In this document: piece by piece, positions 6,652 to 17,433 of the stretch
Layout: every line of letters begins with the position of its first letter
How positions within the stretch are numbered: position 1 is the first letter of the stretch
Virus record (IMG/VR): IMGVR_UViG_3300037585_003250
Location: 1 to 27,892 of that record
Length of the DNA: 27,892 nucleotides
Source of the DNA: a virus
Reading direction: 5' to 3' (one strand)
Notes under the pieces: generated by a model
The model's input: only the letters and a program-made list of their open reading frames with translations
What the model was told of the DNA's origin: nothing
Database searches by the model: none
Program-made: the position numbers and the translations under genes

Positions 6652-8757
6652 CTATGAAAGCATCACATCGACAACTTGACTACCGATGGAGCGAGAGTCC
6701 ATCTCCAAGGCAACTTTAATAGGTTGCCTAACCTGAACTGGTGGTGGTGGTGGTTGGTACATTGCTGCTGCCGTAGATTGCACAACGCCTGAACTAGCAT
6801 TGGCAATTCTTCCGGATTGATTAACTTTATCCATCAAAGTTGTGAATTTAACTGTTTTTCTTTCAGGTACAGAGTCTATGGTTGCACCAATTTGTCCCAC
6901 GGCGCGTGCTGTTGCCATTAAACCTTCTTGTTCGGCACTTACTCCAGATAAAGCAGAATTAAACTTTATTATTTTTGTGTGGGCAGCGTCTAAAGGTGAA
7001 GTCATCGATCCAAGTGATTTTGACGCCATGCTAGATGCGGTGCCGACATTCATCAGGGCACTTCCGAACATTTGAGTACCTTCAAGCAAAGTCGGAGAAT
7101 TTCTTTTATGTAAGATAGTGAAGGCAAGGGCGCCAAGTACTGCTGGGCCCGCTAACATCATAAGTGGGCCCATGGCGCTGGTTGCGGCGGCGCCCATTGC
7201 AGTCATTGCCGCTGAGGCCATGGCTATTGAGGTAGCAGCCATATTCGCTATCTTTAAGCCGGCTAGGGCGCCTGTTAGACCAATAATAATTCCTCGGTTC
7301 TCTTGAGCAGCAAGGGCCAAATCTCTGATCTTCTCGACCAGTGGGCCCAATTCTATAGCTATTATGCGCAAAGTCTGTGACATCATGTCGGCCACAGAAT
7401 TAAATCTTTGTGTTTGTTCCATCATCCGTTCGATATCTTGACTGCTCTGCATTGTTGAAGAACCCAATAGGTCTATTCTACCTCTCATTAACATCGCTAA
7501 TTCGTTTACGTCTTGCAGACCCATCGCGCTCGCTGTGGCTTGTCTCATATAATAACTCATACTATCAAAATTCATGCCGGCGTCTTTGACAGCGCGGGTC
7601 ATCATTTGAAGTCTCTGGGTTGGGTCAGTTGACATAACCATCTGGATAGTATTTAAATATGGGCCGCCGAGTATTGCGTTAAGCCGACCCACTGATTCAG
7701 CAGCTGTGTCAAATTTATCGAATTGTTGTGTTATCGATAGGAGTCGATTTATCTCAACACCAGTGTTTTTTGCAACTGATTGCAGGTTGATATAAACTCT
7801 GGTTGCCTCTTGGCCAAATTTGATAAGTTGTGGACCGATGGAGCCGAAGTCTCCAAGCATCTTTGAGGTGCTAATACCTATATTTTGGGCGGCGGCAAAT
7901 AATTGTTGGTTCATGTCGGCGGCCATCGGTCCGGACATTCCCATTGAACGATTCAGAATATCTAAGTTTCTAGCTGAAACTTCGGAACTAATGCCCATCT
8001 TTTGTAAAACAGCTGTGGAATCTGCCACAACTCTCTTAGACCTATCTGACATCTGAGTGAATCCAGACATGCCAGAGTATAGGGCATTAACAGCTTGAGA
8101 GGACATCTCAGCAGTGACGCCTAATTTGTATAGTCTAGACTCCATATCTGGAATCATGGCTGTAAATCGCCCACTGGCGCCTGTGGTCCTCGCGAGGGCT
8201 ACACTAGCATCGTCGACGCCTCTCATAAGATCATAAGACCCTTTAGTTACAGCAGCGAGGGCACCGCCGCCAAGTTCTTGAAACTTCATGAAGGTAGAGG
8301 TTAAGTATTCCGCTCCACTTACTGCTCCTTTCATTTCACTTGTAATGGAAGCAAATGCGGCACCTACACCCTTGCCTTCAGCCATGATCTTAGCCATAAC
8401 CCCAGTTGTTGATGTCTTCCAAGCACTATTTATACCCATTAGGCCGCGGATGCGCTCTTTCTGGGTGTCATAGGCTGAATTTAATTCAAAAATCTTAGCC
8501 TTTAATTCCCCTAAAAGCTGAATTTGTCTTTCTATGTTTTCAACTGCTTGAGCGCCTAGTGTTCTACGCTGATCTTCCGTTTTTACAAGCTCGCTTAGGC
8601 TTCGTCGTGTTGCACCTAAAGTAGCACTATAACCGGCCGCTGTCTGATCGAGTAAGGCTATCTGGTCGGACAACGCCTGAACGGCTGCTATAGCTTCAGG
8701 AGCTGCTACAGTGCCTAGGTTTCTTAGATCATTAAGTGTGCTTTCTAAATCCGCCAT
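6652..8757 (-). CDS. Tail tape measure protein (gp29-like)
   Basis: A 701-aa protein that would set tail length and occupy the tube lumen until DNA ejection. Evidence is architecture and position. The N-terminal 110 residues are a heptad-rich coiled coil. The middle is long, helical and Ala/Met/Ser/Gly-rich. Residues about 484-546 form a hydrophobic Ala/Gly/Met-rich region (IIIGLTGALAGLKIANMAAT onward) able to span a membrane, a usual tape-measure feature. A Pro5 run near residue 669 precedes the C-terminal tail. It lies downstream of the gp26-type gene and upstream of the tube-initiator candidate, as in many myoviruses. T4 gp29 is 590 aa, so the tail may be somewhat longer than T4's. SD AGGGGGA precedes the ATG at 8757. 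Confidence 0.8.
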   Translation of the reverse strand: MADLESTLNDLRNLGTVAAPEAIAAVQALSDQIALLDQTAAGYSATLGATRRSLSELVKTEDQRRTLGAQAVENIERQIQLLGELKAKIFELNSAYDTQKERIRGLMGINSAWKTSTTGVMAKIMAEGKGVGAAFASITSEMKGAVSGAEYLTSTFMKFQELGGGALAAVTKGSYDLMRGVDDASVALARTTGASGRFTAMIPDMESRLYKLGVTAEMSSQAVNALYSGMSGFTQMSDRSKRVVADSTAVLQKMGISSEVSARNLDILNRSMGMSGPMAADMNQQLFAAAQNIGISTSKMLGDFGSIGPQLIKFGQEATRVYINLQSVAKNTGVEINRLLSITQQFDKFDTAAESVGRLNAILGGPYLNTIQMVMSTDPTQRLQMMTRAVKDAGMNFDSMSYYMRQATASAMGLQDVNELAMLMRGRIDLLGSSTMQSSQDIERMMEQTQRFNSVADMMSQTLRIIAIELGPLVEKIRDLALAAQENRGIIIGLTGALAGLKIANMAATSIAMASAAMTAMGAAATSAMGPLMMLAGPAVLGALAFTILHKRNSPTLLEGTQMFGSALMNVGTASSMASKSLGSMTSPLDAAHTKIIKFNSALSGVSAEQEGLMATARAVGQIGATIDSVPERKTVKFTTLMDKVNQSGRIANASSGVVQSTAAAMYQPPPPPVQVRQPIKVALEMDSRSIGSQVVDVMLS

Positions 8758-8769
8758 AAATTAATCCCC

Positions 8770-9111
8770 CTATACAAACGGCCATTTAATTCCAGTGGAA
8801 TTTTCAAAAGATCTAACGGCTGAGTCCAGTTTTGCTTTGTTTTTATATGTCTTGGGGTTATCTAGACCGTACATCTTAGCAGTCTCGATATATCGTTTTT
8901 CACTACCCAGAGCTTTTGCAAAAGCGTTGACTTCAACCGGATCTCCTTTGACTGATACGGGTATGTTAGACCCTCCGAACATTCTCTGTAAAATTTCTTT
9001 TACCCAGAACCCGAACATAGACATAAAGCTTTCATTAAGCTTATTCTGTCTTATTTCACTAAAATCTATCACGATTTCAGTAAGCTTGTCTTCGTTTAAA
9101 CTTGTATTCAT
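8770..9111 (-). CDS. Conserved 113-aa protein of unknown function in the baseplate cluster
   Basis: I recall similar proteins in marine T4-like phages but know no function. Residues 29-47 carry an amphipathic segment (FMSMFGFWVKEILQRMFGG). A charged helix follows (EVNAFAKALGSEKRYIETAK), then a C-terminal motif DNPKTYKNKAKLDSAVRSFE ending GIKWPFV. The first gene of its transcription unit: a terminator at 9150-9185 and an ACTATTTAGT element at 9136-9145 lie directly upstream, and the SD GGAGG is well spaced. It precedes the tape measure by 12 nt, so a tail-assembly helper role is possible but unproven. Confidence 0.75.
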   Translation of the reverse strand: MNTSLNEDKLTEIVIDFSEIRQNKLNESFMSMFGFWVKEILQRMFGGSNIPVSVKGDPVEVNAFAKALGSEKRYIETAKMYGLDNPKTYKNKAKLDSAVRSFENSTGIKWPFV

Positions 9112-9149: not shown

Positions 9150-9185
9150 ATATAAAAATAAAGCCGAAGAGCTTGTCTTCGGCTT
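9150..9185 (-). terminator. Intrinsic terminator after the gp26/gp51-like unit
   Basis: A perfect 10-bp inverted repeat (AAGCCGAAGA / TCTTCGGCTT, 9161-9170 with 9176-9185) with a 5-nt loop. On the minus strand it is followed by the U-rich stretch TTTATTTTTAT. The TAA stop of the small upstream ORF lies at the base of the stem. Confidence 0.85.
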
Positions 9186-9402
9186 AACGAGAGTGTTGAT
9201 TTTTTGCTTTTTCGGAAGCTTTTTCCATAGCCTCGTTTTCGTCTTCTTTTTGTTTTAGCAGACGCTCTAAAAACCACCTTCTTAACAGTATTGGTAAATT
9301 ATAAGCCTCTGTAAAACTCCAGCCACCGTAATATTTTAATGCAAAAAATTCTTCATATACTGATTTAATATATATATCATCTAGGCCAAAAAAATTCCGC
9401 AG
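9184..9402 (-). CDS. Small ORF downstream of gp26-like gene (gp51 position), no canonical start; likely made by frameshift
   Basis: The frame is open from after the TGA at 9403-9405 to the TAA at 9184-9186. It encodes up to 72 residues but contains no ATG or GTG near its beginning, and no TTG either; only a CTG at 9402 is available. The product reads well as protein: GLDDIYIKSVYEEFFALKYY, then GGWSFTEAYNLP, RRWFLERLLKQ and a charged tail. It resembles the small proteins that follow gp26 in T4-like phages, where T4 has gp51 (baseplate hub assembly). It overlaps the 3' end of the gp26-like gene in the +1 frame, and the overlap contains a T7 run at 9388-9394. A +1 (or -2) slip there would give a gp26-small ORF fusion of about 342 aa. 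An assembly indel in the homopolymer is the alternative. Confidence 0.65.
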   Translation of the reverse strand: MRNFFGLDDIYIKSVYEEFFALKYYGGWSFTEAYNLPILLRRWFLERLLKQKEDENEAMEKASEKAKNQHSR

Positions 9403-10213
9403 TCAGCGGAACCCCCAGTTCCTGCCCAAAGCCGCAAGATGTACATGTAAAATCATGCGTCATATCAATATCTGGAACAATCTTAAAATAATTCTGCCTT
9501 AAGTATCTTGAGTCCTTGGCCGGCATCGCATTTATAAATTTAGATATAGATGATGCTGAATTATCGCCGTTGACTGAGACCATCATTCTTGTTAGTTGGT
9601 CTGTTAGATTTGTTTCTGGTAGGTTTTTCTTTCTTTTGTTTTCTGCTAAAGCAACTAGGTAATCTTCGTCCCTGCTTGTCATTAGGCGAACTTCAAGGTT
9701 AACCTTACTAACTGGCAATGATATAAGGAACGTTCCGTTCTCGGTGACTTGCATATTCTCGTCTAAATTGTCACCATAATATGGTTCTAATGTGTCCAAG
9801 TTAAATGCACTCTTCTCAGAGACGCCACAAGATGGGCATGTTACGTTAATATCATACTCCTCTCCGTATCCAGTGATCCTAGATGCAATCAAAATCGCGT
9901 TTTTATCACCAACATAAAGATCATCGACTTTAATGCTCTTGTTAACAAGAACACTTTGCAAAAATCTTCTAATTGCTATTCCTTTTCGCAGAAGAGTTTT
10001 GGATGTCAGAATATCCTCATCTTTTGCTGTCATAAACCGAATCTCTACTTCTTCCACACCACGGAGAGGATGCCCTTCTGGGTAGTACCTTCCTTTCGTT
10101 GGCAATTCAACGATTTCCGTGGGTGTTGCAAAAGAAAAAGATGCATCCGGTGGTGCTGGGGTGTCGACATTCATGTCTTTGACCCCCATGCGGTCTGCGT
10201 TATTTCTACTCAA
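9377..10213 (-). CDS. Baseplate hub protein, gp26-like, with two CxxC pairs
   Basis: A 278-aa protein of the T4 gp26 baseplate family. Supporting signs are the ELPTKGRYYPEGHPL segment (36-50), the R-F-M-T-AKDEDIL motif (59-69) repeated as RLMTSRDEDYL (176-186), and the FFWPR C-terminus. It acts in hub assembly and is expected in the virion core or as a chaperone. Two CxxC motifs (C126/C129 in CPSCG and C257/C260 in CTSCG) look like a four-cysteine zinc site. The start is TTG at 10213 with a GAGGTG SD six nt upstream; the first ATG (residue 9) lacks an SD. The 3' end overlaps the next ORF at a T7 run. It follows the tube gene by 29 nt without its own ACTA element, so it is probably read from the tube or sheath promoters. 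Confidence 0.8.
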   Translation of the reverse strand: MSRNNADRMGVKDMNVDTPAPPDASFSFATPTEIVELPTKGRYYPEGHPLRGVEEVEIRFMTAKDEDILTSKTLLRKGIAIRRFLQSVLVNKSIKVDDLYVGDKNAILIASRITGYGEEYDINVTCPSCGVSEKSAFNLDTLEPYYGDNLDENMQVTENGTFLISLPVSKVNLEVRLMTSRDEDYLVALAENKRKKNLPETNLTDQLTRMMVSVNGDNSASSISKFINAMPAKDSRYLRQNYFKIVPDIDMTHDFTCTSCGFGQELGVPLTAEFFWPR

Positions 10214-10242: not shown

Positions 10243-10860
10243 TTAGCCGCCGAGGACGCCGGTACCAGTAACTGTGCCGAAGATAGCTTCTCCAGTCAGA
10301 GCAGCTTCGGTAGCAGCTTCGGTAGCGTCTGTCGGGCCATGAACTGTACACTCAGCCCAATCATATCTAATTTCTAAGTTAACATTGGCTAAAGCATCGG
10401 ACTCGTAATCTAAGTCATCTAGAGAAATGCTTTTAACCCAAGCGTTGTGAAGTAACCATTGCTCAATAATATAGCCATCTCCATCAATCTGGTTGATTTT
10501 AACTTCTCCCAGCCCACCGTCGGCGGATTGAGTTGCTTTTCTCTTAGAAATAGTTGTAACTGCGTTTTCGTCTCCCGGTGGAGAGTAACCCGAATCTTGC
10601 AAGTAAGTCATGAAGATTGCAGCTGCATCGGGAGAAACAGGATCAACTAAAGTCATATTAATAGTATTCCATGAAACTCGACCGGGGTAATAAAATGTGT
10701 GATTCAAATAAGTATGTGATGATTCCGAAACAGTAACTGCTGGTTTACCGACTTTCTTGACAAACCACTGTACAGCGGTACCACCGCCGGGTGCCATGTC
10801 CACGGTAAACCTATAAGCTCTCTTCGGATCTCTTCCAGTTGCGCTAGTCCAAAATGCCAT
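10243..10860 (-). CDS. Tail tube protein (gp19-like)
   Basis: A 205-aa major tube subunit that stacks as rings inside the sheath. The N-terminus has the T4 gp19-type layout: a FWTSATGRDPKRAYRFTVDM strand, then WFVKKVGKPAVTV, a HTFYYPGRVSWNTINMTLVD strand pair, AWVKSISLDDLDYES in the second half, and a closing strand VNLEIRYDWAEC. The order sheath-sheath-tube matches T4 18-19. It is longer than T4 gp19 (163 aa), mainly through a flexible Thr/Ala/Gly-rich tail after residue 175. SD AGAGGAG precedes the ATG, and an ACTATTTACA element lies 22 nt upstream, giving it its own likely promoter, as expected for a protein needed in many copies. Confidence 0.9.
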   Translation of the reverse strand: MAFWTSATGRDPKRAYRFTVDMAPGGGTAVQWFVKKVGKPAVTVSESSHTYLNHTFYYPGRVSWNTINMTLVDPVSPDAAAIFMTYLQDSGYSPPGDENAVTTISKRKATQSADGGLGEVKINQIDGDGYIIEQWLLHNAWVKSISLDDLDYESDALANVNLEIRYDWAECTVHGPTDATEAATEAALTGEAIFGTVTGTGVLGG

Positions 10861-10914: not shown

Positions 10915-13914
10915 TTAGTCTTCGAAAGAAGCACCAGATTTAGTAATAATAAAATCAAGCGCGATGAATTCTATAGATCTTGCTGGTTTAAGGTATATTT
11001 TAGCGTACATAATATTTCTATCTACCAAATCAGGTGTTGTGGTTGTTTCATCTAAGATGACTCTATAATCAGTAAGTCCAAATCTAGATTTTACGCTTTG
11101 CAAGAATGGATTGACCATGCTTGTAAATCTCGTCCAAGTAGCTGGGACATTGTTGTCGAACAGAACTTGAGTTGACATTCTAGAGACTTCTTTCTTCAAG
11201 TAGACCAACAGGCGCCGCACGTTAATACGGTCTAGAGCGGAATCAGTCGCCTGAAGTGTTTTCTGTCCAAAGATAACGATACCTTCGGAAGGGAATCTAG
11301 CAATTGGATTAATGTTGTTCTCGTAAAGCTTATCTCTTTGTTTTTGAGTCAGACGTTCAGATACCGAGACAACTGGCAGGCCTGCTGAGCCTTCTGTCAA
11401 GCCGCCACGGTTGAAGCCGGCAGGGGCGAACCAAAGTTCAGAAACCGCTTCTGAGCTAGCCATAGTACCCAGTGCCACAACAGAAGGAGGTGAGTATACG
11501 AGGACATTTGTTCTAGTATCCTTGATCTGAACCCATGGATAGTAAGTACAGCCGTAACTAGTATTTAGGTCTCTGGTTTGAATTGCAGAAACTACACTGT
11601 CTACGGTCCCTAAATTAGTACTGAAAGACTCAGTATTTTCTGTTGAGGGCGTGAAGACGTCTGGCAAGTCAATTATCGCTAAGGCGTCTGCTCTCTCCTC
11701 TGCTACTTCTAGGACACGATCAGTGATATCAGTGTTCGTCACTCCCGGTACCGTAAGTATGTTGTACTCGACGACATCTGCGTCTGCAACAGTTTGAATT
11801 GCGCGGTCTACAGTGTTATAAGCATAGTGGGAATATTTAGTGGTACTACCAGCGGTCCATTGTGAATTTCGCAATGGTTCAGCCTCTGTAATATCGTAAC
11901 CATCATGGCCGCCTGCCATAACCGTCCAGAATCTATCGTGAGAATCAAGAACTTTCTTGTAGCTTGAGCTAACTGCTGTCACACTTGTACCGTCTGCCCT
12001 AGAGCCGGATACCCATTCGCCGTCGCCGGTCAAGGTGTTAAGTCGAACATCATCGAGGGAAAAGACCCATGAATATTCGGAGCCGACGGGTAGTCCAGTA
12101 AGCTCATCAAAACGGCCTGCAACAGTTGTGTGGAAAGGGAATCCTCTTAAGTAATCGGTAATTCCGTGATCTGGGGTTTTTACACCTTTTGTCGTACTAG
12201 TAGATACGCCAAAGAATGCATCGCTTCCGGGGCCCGGGCCGGGACCGTCTGCTGAACTTGAACGCAAGGAGACTCCGGGGAACGGGAACGTACCAGAGAA
12301 TGGGATCCCGGTGGCCTTTCTGCCGTTGCCGGCAATGCGGCCGACGTCGATAAATGCACCGTCATTGGTTGGTTGTTTAATGTGTGTAGTTGCGTCAGAG
12401 CCGGCTATACAGTTTCCTGAACCGTAGGTTTCTATATGAGTCGCGGTTGTGTTCTGGTAGAATTTGTCTGTGAACGCAACTGACCCACTTTCATAAAAAA
12501 CTGTCTGCGGCCGAATAGGACCAGTAACACCAAATGGTAAGCTAGCTGGATTAAAGTCAATATCCAAAGCAGGGTTCATTTCAACACGAATATATTTTGA
12601 TTTGTTATTGTATTGACCATACTCAGTATGTTTTTCTAAAGAATAACTCCAAGAAAGGTGCTTATCTCCTATTCTACTAGCGATATAATTAGGAGAATTC
12701 GGGTTTAAGTTACAATTGGTGTATCTCTCCAATGCTTCAAATTTTGCTGCTTTGTCAGTAGCTCCTATTGGATAGATAGCAACCGTAAAAGACCCAAACG
12801 GTACTAAAGTATTAGGAGATGCCTTAAGATCTTCTATAGCAATCTTAACCTTGTGCCCCTCCATACCGTAGTCACGAGAAACAAACCTGAATAGTTTAGT
12901 TGCCGTATCGGGTGCAGAATGGTTGGCGTTAGCTCCAAAGTCTTGCGAAAAGAACCAGCCTGTCTTAGGATTAACAAAATTGTTTTGGCGATTCGCCCAG
13001 TTAGCTGTGCCGCTGATCATTGGCAAAATTATACCAAACTGAGAGTCGGTTGATGTAGTGCCCTCTTTAACAGCGCGTTCAAATGTTTCACCAAGCCAAT
13101 ATTTATCTTTTTGCTCTGTAACTTCTCCGCTAGTAACAACATCTGAATTTGTCATGACGGGATTTGTGTTAAATACATCGCGAATGTAGCGGCCGCCGGG
13201 GTTAGCAAAGTCGAATTCAAATGTTCTAAAAGAACCCAAAGTTTCACCGGTTGCGACGTGATTTTTCAAGACACACTTAAAGACGTTATTAACATCTTGT
13301 GATTTGATTGCTATAGCTGTACCAGTGACGGCTGTGTTGCCGGACCGGTCCGAACCAGAAAGCATCATGATCGAGCCAGACTGGGTATACCAGACTGCGG
13401 CCAAGGTGCCAGTAGCGAATGTGCCATCAGTGCCGGCGAGGACGCCGGCAGTGTCGCGGCCTTTAAGGCTTCCAGAGTCAAAAACCCATAAACCCCAAGC
13501 GCCTCCGGCAGCAGATTCAAGGCTTGTAGCCGAAGCGCCAAGTTGTGTAGTTCTCCAACCAGCCAGAGTGCCTCCATCGGTTCTAGATTCGTGCTCTTCA
13601 CCTAATGTCCTAACAACCGTAACAGGTGAAACGGCAGCGTTCAACCATGCTTTGGCCGCATATGCAGCGTAAGTGGGCCCTAGAGGAACATTTTCCCTCC
13701 AGACATCGACCCCTTCAGGACCGCCGACAGGATGGCCAAAAGTTTCAACAAATTGTTGGTAGTTTTCAACGGTAACAGGGCGCATAGCTGGGCCTTTTCT
13801 GGTGCGGCCGATAATAGTTGGTCCTAAAATCGGTGGAACCGGCTCAATTATGGATTCATCTACTTCATTAGTGTAGATGCCCGGGGAAATAAACTTAAAT
13901 TTTCTAGCTGCCAT
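10915..13914 (-). CDS. Tail sheath protein, paralogue A (gp18-like, 999 aa)
   Basis: A contractile sheath subunit. It opens MAARKFKFISPGIYTNEVDE and carries IIGRTRKGPAMRP, the usual gp18-type start, in which the N-terminal arm meshes with neighbouring subunits. Mid-protein landmarks are VSRDYGMEGHKVKIAIEDLK, HDRFWTVMAGGHDGYD and VAEERADALAIIDLPDVFTP. The C-terminal core ends LKPARSIEFIALDFIITKSG. T4 gp18 is 659 aa, so this protein carries over 300 extra residues, including a variable stretch around 475-570 probably exposed on the sheath surface. It is a tandem paralogue of the gene at 14020-17433: the last 77 residues differ at only 10 positions. It lacks the inserted domain of that copy. An ACTATTTACT element lies 42 nt upstream of the ATG. 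Confidence 0.93.
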   Translation of the reverse strand: MAARKFKFISPGIYTNEVDESIIEPVPPILGPTIIGRTRKGPAMRPVTVENYQQFVETFGHPVGGPEGVDVWRENVPLGPTYAAYAAKAWLNAAVSPVTVVRTLGEEHESRTDGGTLAGWRTTQLGASATSLESAAGGAWGLWVFDSGSLKGRDTAGVLAGTDGTFATGTLAAVWYTQSGSIMMLSGSDRSGNTAVTGTAIAIKSQDVNNVFKCVLKNHVATGETLGSFRTFEFDFANPGGRYIRDVFNTNPVMTNSDVVTSGEVTEQKDKYWLGETFERAVKEGTTSTDSQFGIILPMISGTANWANRQNNFVNPKTGWFFSQDFGANANHSAPDTATKLFRFVSRDYGMEGHKVKIAIEDLKASPNTLVPFGSFTVAIYPIGATDKAAKFEALERYTNCNLNPNSPNYIASRIGDKHLSWSYSLEKHTEYGQYNNKSKYIRVEMNPALDIDFNPASLPFGVTGPIRPQTVFYESGSVAFTDKFYQNTTATHIETYGSGNCIAGSDATTHIKQPTNDGAFIDVGRIAGNGRKATGIPFSGTFPFPGVSLRSSSADGPGPGPGSDAFFGVSTSTTKGVKTPDHGITDYLRGFPFHTTVAGRFDELTGLPVGSEYSWVFSLDDVRLNTLTGDGEWVSGSRADGTSVTAVSSSYKKVLDSHDRFWTVMAGGHDGYDITEAEPLRNSQWTAGSTTKYSHYAYNTVDRAIQTVADADVVEYNILTVPGVTNTDITDRVLEVAEERADALAIIDLPDVFTPSTENTESFSTNLGTVDSVVSAIQTRDLNTSYGCTYYPWVQIKDTRTNVLVYSPPSVVALGTMASSEAVSELWFAPAGFNRGGLTEGSAGLPVVSVSERLTQKQRDKLYENNINPIARFPSEGIVIFGQKTLQATDSALDRINVRRLLVYLKKEVSRMSTQVLFDNNVPATWTRFTSMVNPFLQSVKSRFGLTDYRVILDETTTTPDLVDRNIMYAKIYLKPARSIEFIALDFIITKSGASFED

Positions 13915-14008: not shown

Positions 14009-14031
14009 TTTGAAGACGCTTAGTCTTCAAA
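14009..14031 (-). terminator. Weak terminator candidate at the end of sheath paralogue B
   Basis: A 9-bp inverted repeat, TTTGAAGAC / GTCTTCAAA, with a 5-nt loop that holds part of the stop codon. The minus-strand sequence after it (TGGCTTTTATAAG) is only modestly U-rich, so termination would be partial at best. Confidence 0.35.
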
Positions 14032-17000
14032 GGAAGCGCCGGACTTGGTGATAATAAAATCAAGTGCAATAAACTCTATAGCTCTTGCAGGCTTTAAGTA
14101 AATCTTTGCATACATAATATTTCTATCTACCAAATCAGGTGTTGTCGTAGACTCGTCTAGGATTACCTTATACTCAGTAATCCCAAATCTTGCCTTCACA
14201 CTACTCAAAAATGGGTTTATTAAACTAGTGAACCTGCTCCAAGTCGCAGGGACGTTGTTATCAAATAACACCTGAGTTGACATTCTGGATACTTCTTTTT
14301 TAAGGAAGATCATGAGTCGACGTACATTGATCCGATCTAAAGCAGAGGGAGTCGCTTGAAGTGTTTTTTGTCCAAACACTACTATGCCATCCGATGATAA
14401 CGAAGCAATTGGGTTAATGTTATTTAGATACAATTCATCTCTTTGACCAAGATTAAGAGTATCAGATACGGCTGTCACAGGTACCCCTCCGTGGCCTCTA
14501 GAGAGTGTTCCTCTCTTATAACCAGCTGGGGCCTTCCACAACTCTGATACAGCCTCAGTGTGGCCCATAGCGCCTAGAGCGACGACAGATGGTGGAGTCC
14601 AAAGCAAGCGACGATTACTCGTGTCTCTAATTTGCACCCATGGATAGTATGCACAAGCATAGCTAGTATTTAATTCTCTATTCTGGATTGAAGAAACTAC
14701 AGAAGTCACTGAACCAAGATTGTTGGCAAAAGACTTGGTATTTTCTGTGCTTGGAGTGAATACATCCGCTAAATCAATAATCGCGAGTGCATCGGCGCGT
14801 TCTTCTGCTATCTCCATTACTCTGTCAGTCAAATCGTTGTTAGTAATGCCGGGAGCTGTTAATAAATTATATTCTATAACATCTTGATCCGCGACAGTAC
14901 CAAGAGCACGGTGAACACTGTTCCAAGCATAATTGGTGTATTTGGTTGTAGTTCCAACAGTCCATTGAGAATTTCTAAGTGGCTCTGCTTCAGTTACATC
15001 GAAACCATCGTGGCCGCCGGCCATGACCGTCCAGAACCTGTCGTGATGATTAAGAATTTCTTTATAACTAGAACTTGTTGCGGTGGCACTGGAGCCATCT
15101 GCCCTAGAGCCAGATACAAACTCTCCGGCGCCGGTTGTGGTGTTAATCCGGATATCATCAAGAGAGAAGACCCATGAGTATTCGGCTCCATAAGATGGCA
15201 GACCAGTTAACTCTTCGAAACGTCCTGCAACTGTAGAATCAAATGGCAATCCTCTTAAATAATCACCTATTCCAGCGTCCGGAGTATTAACTGTTTTCAA
15301 CTTCGTAGTGGAAACCCCAAAATATGCGTCGGCTCCCGGGCCATCACCGGGGCCGTCGACAGAGCTTGAACGTATAGACGGAGCTGGGAATTCGAAACTA
15401 CAAGACATTGGTATCATGCTTGCTGCTGCGTCGGCGCCCATGCTAAACAAGTGGCCTCCGATCTTATTATCCAGCGGATTACCGTATATTTGCCCTCCGG
15501 TCAAGAACGTCTCGAACGTTGCGGCGGCTATAGAAGTAGCACCAGAAGAACCGGGCAATGAACCTTCAGCCTTAGCAAAATGTCTAGAAGTTAAAATACT
15601 TCCACTATGAAAGCCAGCGCCGGATCCACTAACCCAGTGAGCAGTGGGCGGCCGGACAGGCCCAGATACGCCGAATGGCAGACTAGCCTGATTGAAATCA
15701 ACATCCAAAGCGGGGTTCATCTCAACCCGAATATACTTGGATTGATTAGCATATTGACCAATGTGAGTATGTTTATCCAAAGAATATTCCCAGTTGACAT
15801 ATCTGTCGCCTATTCTTCTGGCAATGTAATTCTCGGAGATCGGGTTTAGATTGCAATTAGTATATTTTTCTAACGCTTCAAATTTGGCTTTCTTATCAGC
15901 AGTTCCAATTGGGTAGATACCCACCGTGAAAGATCCATAAGGCGAAGTAGGATTTGGTGAGGCTTTAATATCCTCAATAGCAATCTTAATTTTATGTCCT
16001 TCCATTCCATAATCACGAGAAACAAATCTGAATAGTCTAGTCGTGGTGTCGGGTGCCGAGAAGCTGCTGTTGGCGCCAAAGTCTTGTGAGAAAAACCAAC
16101 CCGTTTTAGGATTAACATAGTTGTTTCGGCGGAAAGACCAGTTAACTGACCCACTAAGGAGAGGAAGTATAATACCAAACTGACTATCCGTTGATGTGGT
16201 TTTTTCGTTTAACTGCCGCTCAAAAGTCTCACCAAGCCAATATTTATTCTTCATAGCACTGACTTCGCCTGATGTGACAACATCCGAATTCGTCAAAACC
16301 GGGTTGGTGTTGAAAATGTCTCGGACATATTGACCACCATTAGGGTCGAAGTTAAATTTGAAGACTTGCGAATTCTCCTCGGTGCCACCGGAAAAATCTG
16401 TTTTTGATATGTTACCACCTAAAGAAGTTAAAGTGATTGTAGTATTTCCAGCCGTACCTGCGATACTTTGTACTAAAGTTAATTGTTGACCGGAGTCGAC
16501 TGTCGCGGTAGATGCAACAATTGTTCCATTGTGGCCGGCTGCATTATTTATACAATCCACTAGAGATGCAGCTACTGCGGAATCTCCGCCGCTGTCTCCA
16601 TCAAACTGGTTTGCGGCCAAATTTTCAGTTCCCTTTGCAGTATATGTTACTGTTTTGCCGGCACCATCAGTTATTGCAACTGTTCCATCGAGAGTTACAT
16701 GTGCTGCAATATTTATTGTTGCAGTTGCCTTAATACCCGTTCCGTCGTCGCCGGAGGAATAAGATTTCAAAACAGTCTTAAATTCATTATTCACCCCTTG
16801 CGATTTAATGAAGACGGCGGTACCGGTGACGGCCGCGGTTTGGCCTCTAGAAGTACCTGACATCATCATAATCGAACCGGAGTCGCAATACCATATCGCG
16901 GCGAGGGTGCCTGTGGCTGAATTGCCAGCGCCATTCTTGAGGTCGTTGGTTTCAGCACAAGAAGCGGAATCAAAAATCCACATTCCGTAAGCTCCGCCTT

Positions 17001-17433
17001 GCATAGAACCAGAAGCTGCCAAGCTATTAAGATAATCTGTAGTTAGGTTGGCCTTAGAGCCTTGTGTTGTCTTCCAACCGGCCAGAACGCCATCAGAGTC
17101 TCTAGAATCGTGTTCTTCTCCTAGCACACGAACAATGGTTGCTGGCGAAACATTAGAATTAAGCCATGCTTTGGCAGCATATGATGCATATGTTGGGCCG
17201 GCGGGAGTGTTAGCTCTCCATAAATCGCCTGTCTCTGGGCCCGGAACAGGGTCGCCGAAAGTTTCAACAAATTCTTGATAATTCTCTACTTTGATAGGGC
17301 GCATTGCGGGGCCTTTTCTAGTCCTTCCTACGATGAGGGGGCCTAAAACAGGCGGGGTAGGTGTGATTATGGACTCATCCACTTCATTTATATAAACACC
17401 GGGTGAAATGAATTTAAATTTTCTAGCTGCCAT
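14020..17433 (-). CDS. Tail sheath protein, paralogue B (gp18-like, 1137 aa) with inserted beta-rich domain
   Basis: A second contractile-sheath gene directly upstream of paralogue A, sharing its N-terminal arm (MAARKFKFISPGVYINEVDE), the GRTRKGPAMRP segment, VSRDYGMEGHKIKIAIEDIK, HDRFWTVMAGGHDGFD and the C-terminal core. It is 138 residues longer. Most of the difference is one block at about residues 230-353 (DNA about 16375-16746), absent from paralogue A, with Thr/Gly/Ala-rich beta-strand character: TVAITDGAGKTVTYTAKGTE, AVAASLVDCINNAAGHNGTI, and LVQSIAGTAGNTTITLTSLG. Such modules recur, from memory, as insertions in phage virion proteins. A second variable stretch aligns with the variable region of paralogue A (about 600-695). 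ATG at 17433 has an AAGGAG SD, and ACTATTTATC lies 30 nt upstream. Confidence 0.93.
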   Translation of the reverse strand: MAARKFKFISPGVYINEVDESIITPTPPVLGPLIVGRTRKGPAMRPIKVENYQEFVETFGDPVPGPETGDLWRANTPAGPTYASYAAKAWLNSNVSPATIVRVLGEEHDSRDSDGVLAGWKTTQGSKANLTTDYLNSLAASGSMQGGAYGMWIFDSASCAETNDLKNGAGNSATGTLAAIWYCDSGSIMMMSGTSRGQTAAVTGTAVFIKSQGVNNEFKTVLKSYSSGDDGTGIKATATINIAAHVTLDGTVAITDGAGKTVTYTAKGTENLAANQFDGDSGGDSAVAASLVDCINNAAGHNGTIVASTATVDSGQQLTLVQSIAGTAGNTTITLTSLGGNISKTDFSGGTEENSQVFKFNFDPNGGQYVRDIFNTNPVLTNSDVVTSGEVSAMKNKYWLGETFERQLNEKTTSTDSQFGIILPLLSGSVNWSFRRNNYVNPKTGWFFSQDFGANSSFSAPDTTTRLFRFVSRDYGMEGHKIKIAIEDIKASPNPTSPYGSFTVGIYPIGTADKKAKFEALEKYTNCNLNPISENYIARRIGDRYVNWEYSLDKHTHIGQYANQSKYIRVEMNPALDVDFNQASLPFGVSGPVRPPTAHWVSGSGAGFHSGSILTSRHFAKAEGSLPGSSGATSIAAATFETFLTGGQIYGNPLDNKIGGHLFSMGADAAASMIPMSCSFEFPAPSIRSSSVDGPGDGPGADAYFGVSTTKLKTVNTPDAGIGDYLRGLPFDSTVAGRFEELTGLPSYGAEYSWVFSLDDIRINTTTGAGEFVSGSRADGSSATATSSSYKEILNHHDRFWTVMAGGHDGFDVTEAEPLRNSQWTVGTTTKYTNYAWNSVHRALGTVADQDVIEYNLLTAPGITNNDLTDRVMEIAEERADALAIIDLADVFTPSTENTKSFANNLGSVTSVVSSIQNRELNTSYACAYYPWVQIRDTSNRRLLWTPPSVVALGAMGHTEAVSELWKAPAGYKRGTLSRGHGGVPVTAVSDTLNLGQRDELYLNNINPIASLSSDGIVVFGQKTLQATPSALDRINVRRLMIFLKKEVSRMSTQVLFDNNVPATWSRFTSLINPFLSSVKARFGITEYKVILDESTTTPDLVDRNIMYAKIYLKPARAIEFIALDFIITKSGASFED
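16375..16746 (-). other. Inserted beta-rich domain within sheath paralogue B
   Basis: Codes for about residues 230-353 of the 1137-aa sheath protein. Flanking residues (VLKSYSSGDD before, SQVFKFNFDPNGG after) align with contiguous sequence in paralogue A (VLKNHVATGE, RTFEFDFANPGG). The block is therefore a discrete insertion in one copy or a deletion in the other. Boundaries are approximate. Confidence 0.7.

Follow-up and report, generated by a model that had tools for sequence, protein, structure and literature searches.

A probable T4 gp26-like tail-assembly chaperone gene with a predicted +1 ribosomal frameshift at a conserved TTT TTT TGG site

The locus described here raises the question of how a small open reading frame with no apparent start codon is translated. 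In the window, by which we mean the whole 27,892-nucleotide stretch of viral DNA analysed, a gene for a gp26-like protein of 278 aa lies on the minus strand (9377..10213), with a TTG start preceded by the Shine-Dalgarno sequence GAGGTG and a 3' end that reads GAA TTT TTT TGG CCT AGA TGA, in which the run of seven T residues occupies positions 9388-9394. The small ORF, open from stop to stop over 72 codons on the same strand (9184..9402, with TAA at 9184-9186), overlaps this gene by 26 nt in the +1 frame; between its opening and a conserved motif it contains no ATG, GTG or TTG. As the next gene downstream of the pair, which encodes 113 aa (8770..9111, minus strand; no family match in Pfam or PHROG), has a plain CCCGGAGG ribosome-binding site of its own and an ATG, it is notable that the small ORF has neither. 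Skipping one T at the putative slip site TTTTTTTGG (9386..9394, minus strand; TTT TTT TGG in the 0 frame) would lead from EFF directly into GLDDIYIKSVYEEFF...GGWSFTEAYNLP..., a predicted frameshift-encoded C-terminal extension of 67 aa (9187..9387, minus strand; the T domain), and give a fusion of 275 + 67 = 342 aa. A preliminary description of this DNA had noted the overlap, the missing start codon and the length of the fusion, all of which we confirmed, and had proposed a programmed shift at the T run in a pair likened to tail-assembly chaperones; the constant +1 frame of the relatives analysed below supports the first proposal, while the likeness holds through homology to the T4 gp26/gp51 family and a position next to the tail tube gene. 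The terminator that it placed right after the small ORF fared less well, as the terminator-like hairpin present there (9161..9185, minus strand) carries no weight, with one match found versus 1.2 expected in shuffled sequences.

The genes around the pair are ordered tube, gp26, T domain, 113-aa protein and 701-aa protein. The tube gene upstream of the pair (10243..10860, minus strand) matches the PHROG 4542 tail tube protein with an E value of 1.7e-26. The 701-aa protein (6652..8757, minus strand) had no family match; it is a probable tape measure, judged by its size and position and by the annotation of the equivalent downstream gene as a tape measure in Listeria phage LIS04 and Flavobacterium phage immuto and, one gene further on, in Caulobacter phage Cr30. 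A nucleotide search of phage records returned no match. The minus strand of the window also carries two tandem tail-sheath genes, at 10915-13914 and 14020-17433, whose products of 999 and 1137 aa share ~66% identity along most of the sequence; the 1137-aa product has an extra stretch at ~residues 226-350.

The gp26-like protein belongs to the T4_baseplate family (Pfam PF12322; E 2e-14, 54.3 bits versus a cut-off of 24.5) and matches the PHROG 150 baseplate hub with an E value of 5e-15. A structure of gp26 alone, predicted using AlphaFold2 with a pLDDT of 92, matched T4-like baseplate hub proteins in BFVD, such as that of Bacillus phage SP-15 (E 5e-19). When this model was aligned with solved structures using VIA-align, the known chaperones of HK97 (2ob9, Z 4.2) and YqbN (3klu, Z 4.1) took second and third place among 921 chains, with Z scores that are weak and below the reliable range, and the Foldseek match to the HK97 chaperone was likewise weak (E 1.8). 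The likeness of the predicted fold to these two chaperones is thus suggestive, below the reliable range of the method, and sequence profiles gave no meaningful match to solved structures. The T domain matched DUF6760 (PF20546) weakly, at 19 bits versus a cut-off of 27 (E 0.0015), and is likely a distant relative of that family that falls outside it under the curated threshold. Profile comparison linked the window T domain to the 'gp51' mini-gene of cyanophages and Vibrio phage KVP40 (probability 90.9, E 1e-6), and that mini-gene in turn to the C-terminus of T4 gp51 (residues 209-246; probability 94.6, E 7e-8), a similarity that is also stated in the KVP40 record itself. Since direct profile comparison of the window-group T domain with T4 gp51 was not significant, we claim the link only through the cyanophages. 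T4 gp26 and gp51 both belong to PF12322, with gp51 carrying ~48 additional C-terminal residues.

Using the small ORF as query, 80 related viral contigs were recovered, of which 51 were left once near-duplicates had been removed. A gp26 homologue overlaps the small ORF in the same +1 relation in all 80 of these contigs, at gp26 identities down to ~40%. The site TTTTTTTGG is present in 49 of the 51 dereplicated relatives versus 25 expected from the Phe codon usage of the genes themselves (72% TTT), and the maximum reached in 20,000 simulations of this count was 37, such that the arrangement at the predicted slip site is beyond chance. In 51/51 close relatives the extension opens with GL, encoded with third codon positions free, while the 0-frame residues past the Trp codon are variable and followed by a stop 3-4 codons on. 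Across the same 51 relatives, the 0 frame upstream of the site has diversities of 0.42/0.34/0.60 at the first, second and third codon positions, compared with 0.23/0.13/0.53 for the +1 frame past the site. Together with the invariant GL, this indicates that selection acts on the gp26 frame before the site and on the small ORF frame from the site onward.

So that sampling would not favour the small ORF, a second set of 160 contigs was retrieved, for which the only queries were the gp26 proteins of immuto and Microcystis phage Mel-JY01. This revealed 125 distinct junctions, 116 of which were +1 by automatic scoring and six +1 by eye, with three off the contig; none was fused or in the -1 frame. 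The 178 distinct site contexts from all groups comprise TTT TTT TGG (138), TTT CTT TGG (29), TTT CTA TGG (3), CTT TTT TGG (3), TTC TTT TGG (2), TTT TTT TAC (2) and TTT CTT TAC (1), and the few loci missed by the pattern used (L275, L281, L340 and L343) also have TTT TTT TGG in the +1 arrangement. Variants that break the homopolymer, including TTT CTT TGG and TTC TTT TGG, keep the frame, and the codon that would occupy the A site is TGG, or rarely TAC, in all 178 contexts. Overall, at the junction that the preliminary description had suggested comparing among relatives, the frame is conserved in all readable loci and the slippery sequence in most.

The same +1 overlap and site occur in the isolates Mel-JY01, where each frame is annotated as a separate hypothetical protein, and immuto, in whose record the T frame is unannotated. 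The T frame is also in +1 in SP-15, LIS04, Streptococcus phage GXN1 and an uncultured jumbo phage (LR756508), with candidate sites TTT CAC, TTT AGT, TTT CGT and TTT CTA, respectively; in these four records it mostly lacks annotation or has been cut down to a short ORF. Scanning 84,980 bacterial and archaeal genomes for the T domain identified only three MAG contigs, all with TTTTTTTGG and the +1 frame, which are possibly phage contamination. In a WOR-3 MAG (L349), the gp26/T locus with TTTTTTTGG lies on a 2.8 Mb contig of a bacterial chromosome assembly and represents either a prophage or a misassembly.

We consider it highly probable that this locus encodes a tail-assembly chaperone made in two lengths through programmed +1 ribosomal frameshifting. 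We infer that frameshifting occurs here, that it proceeds in the +1 direction and that its rate leaves most ribosomes to complete gp26, giving the 278-aa 'G' form. The remaining fraction would slip one base forward at TTT TTT T, or at TTT CTT T in relatives, with the P-site Phe or Leu tRNA pairing anew with the overlapping UUU or UUC as the UGG codon stands in the A site; these ribosomes would then read GGN CTN and continue through the small ORF, yielding the 342-aa fusion, or 'GT' form. The proteins may do the job of their lambda counterparts, with G coating the tape measure, T bringing in tube subunits and neither remaining in the virion. All seven site variants would permit +1 re-pairing without a mismatch when G-U pairs are allowed. 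No significant or conserved RNA fold was found downstream of the site in five +1 loci (z +0.7 to -1.1), nor was a conserved upstream Shine-Dalgarno stimulator seen. Two other site types were considered for window-type loci and ruled out: a -1 heptamer (X XXY YYZ), by the +1 frame in all readable loci, and an RF2-type +1 site, as none of the 178 contexts has a stop codon in the A site.

The preliminary description had allowed the shift to be +1 or -2, and a -2 slip, as in phage Mu, would produce the same fusion with one extra Phe at the junction (EFFFGL). Such shifts are known in the tail chaperone genes of Mu (PMC5009743), and on TTT TTT T the second Phe tRNA could re-pair two bases back without a mismatch. 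However, tandem re-pairing would leave two P-site mismatches in every variant, and TTC TTT TGG would give a mid-codon mismatch even with a single tRNA. We regard -2 slippage as improbable; the site variants favour +1 and do not prove it, as most of them fail to separate the two.

Expression of the small ORF as a separate protein through coupled re-initiation has a precedent in Actinomycetota, where DUF6760 genes have a GGGGGA-like Shine-Dalgarno sequence and an NTG start codon that shares bases with the upstream TGA, such that an unfused T protein is workable. In the window, however, no ATG, GTG or TTG precedes the motif, and no start codon lies between the site and the motif in 22/51, 33/48 and 33/59 dereplicated loci of three groups, in which a Shine-Dalgarno sequence with a start was found in only 9, 8 and 1 loci, respectively. 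Conservation moreover begins at the slip site, upstream of any start, and no start codon position is conserved across relatives; a separately initiated small protein was the outcome that the preliminary description had set against a frameshift. Re-initiation is accordingly very unlikely here. For the bacterial DUF6760 loci, which are probably extracellular contractile injection systems, frameshifting was rejected given their own Shine-Dalgarno sequence and NTG start. This start overlaps the upstream TGA in the Actinomycetota genes analysed (L351-L368), and is CTG in L357 and L360.

Slippage of RNA polymerase on the seven T residues, by which some mRNAs with an altered run length would encode the fusion directly, might be considered given that homopolymers can cause slippage and that this run is under selection. 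Seven is a short run, however, and because TTT CTT TGG and other variants, amounting to 38 of the 178 contexts, break or shorten it while keeping the frame, we give this explanation little credence, no more than re-initiation. A homopolymer sequencing error in a plain fused gene, conceivable from the single contig of the window with its T run, is excluded for practical purposes by the constancy of the frame in all independent contigs and isolates, by the non-homopolymer variant sites and by the lack of a T6 or T8 (plain fused) version in any relative.

The proposed +1 arrangement resembles lambda G/GT in having two overlapping ORFs that adjoin the gene for the tail tube and precede the presumed tape measure gene, from which a short form and a fused long form would be made. 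The lambda slip is a -1 shift at GGGAAAG, whereas the window has the +1 frame, a T7GG site and a G domain of ~278 aa bearing a zinc ribbon, and no sequence similarity between the window pair and lambda G/GT was found. Chaperone genes of T4 encoding short and fused-long forms were identified in 2022 by Vladimirov, Gautam and Davidson (Virology 566:9-15, as cited in PMC10885494 and PMC12846349), and from the citation in PMC10885494 together with the T4 data we read these as genes 26 and 51. In T4 the genes are separate and divergently transcribed, 26 encoding the short form and 51 the short form plus an extension, whereas the window has one gene and a predicted shift; as its G domain belongs to PF12322 and its T domain is related to the gp51 C-terminus via the cyanophages, the window pair would be the frameshifted counterpart of T4 genes 26 and 51.

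Cyanophages and KVP40 have homologous G and T parts, in gp26 and the 'gp51' mini-gene, and a poly-T slip after two Phe codons, but use the -1 frame and a T TTT TTC heptamer. This heptamer and the T frame in -1 are found in 80/80 cyanophage contigs; across 78 dereplicated loci the heptamer is invariant, the preceding codon ends in T in every locus versus 47 expected, and TTC invariably serves as the second Phe codon despite a 74% share of TTT among Phe codons. Elsewhere in the T4 superfamily, T TTT TTC recurs in KVP40, Vibrio phage D484 and Escherichia phage UB, and in Cr30 the heptamer reads T TTT TTT. Because -1 signals at poly-T tracts have already been described for T4-like phages, according to PMC12846349, we do not claim this part as new. 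Annotation of the -1 mini-gene is uneven, with some starts falling inside the domain (Syn19) and other ORFs unannotated. In Synechococcus phage S-SCSM1 (L092, ~1160-1210), unlike every other cyanophage analysed, the T frame after TTT TTC is in +1, reflecting either a real switch or an indel. KVP40 (L097) has a strong hairpin, GCCAUGAUCACUCAUGGC, at 1229-1246, ~45 nt downstream of UUUUUUC, in an 86-nt fold with a z score of -3.9, and in Escherichia phage CBA120 (L102, 2295-2500) a T-like frame missing from the annotation follows gp26 in -1, with no TTTTTTC heptamer.

In mechanism, the predicted site can be likened to those of the HF1-group haloarchaeal myoviruses and HSTV-2, for which +1 shifts fusing a tail-assembly chaperone pair have been proposed (PMC7230728, PMC5009743); these have TTT in the P site (TTT-CGC in HF1) but differ in the rest of the site and in their archaeal hosts. 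The CUU UGA site of E. coli RF2 (prfB) is similar in that YUU followed by U would re-pair in +1, as would the CTT T of window relatives, but the A-site codon here is UGG and not a stop, and no conserved Shine-Dalgarno stimulator was seen.

Producing chaperones of two lengths by frameshifting is a known phage strategy, and tail-chaperone genes with +1 shifts have been described before (PMC5009743; HF1 haloviruses, TTT-CGC, PMC7230728), such that the kind of event is already known; it is the direction and site of the slip that appear unusual. Our literature search, in which the 2022 Virology paper was represented by the papers citing it, found no description of the T7GG or UUU-CUU site, of the +1 direction within the T4 gp26/gp51 family or of its breadth. 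According to a 2016 review, T4 is the one exception to a G-T frameshift otherwise conserved among long-tailed phages (PMC5009743), and the 2022 paper on T4-like chaperones argues, by its title, for a non-frameshift mechanism. As the tool PRFect detected 0/481 +1 sites in RECODE and +1 sites are hard to predict, more than 100 aligned natural variants of one site should be useful for defining working +1 sites. The +1 reading would also explain an orphan ORF that annotators call a hypothetical protein or omit. Taken together, our analysis makes it probable that one homologous chaperone family obtains its short and long forms by four routes, namely +1 slippage at UUU U/CUU U before UGG in the window clade, -1 slippage in cyanophages and KVP40, gene duplication in T4 and a separate coupled gene in the DUF6760 loci, and that the +1 site represents a large uncharacterised class of sense-codon +1 frameshifts in bacterial viruses. 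Frameshifting, in the unusual +1 direction, would thereby have been retained by relatives of T4 gp26/gp51 in marine, freshwater and Bacteroidota-infecting phages, an extensive and mostly uncultured group of contractile-tailed phages, including marine myophages, in which public annotations have missed the site.
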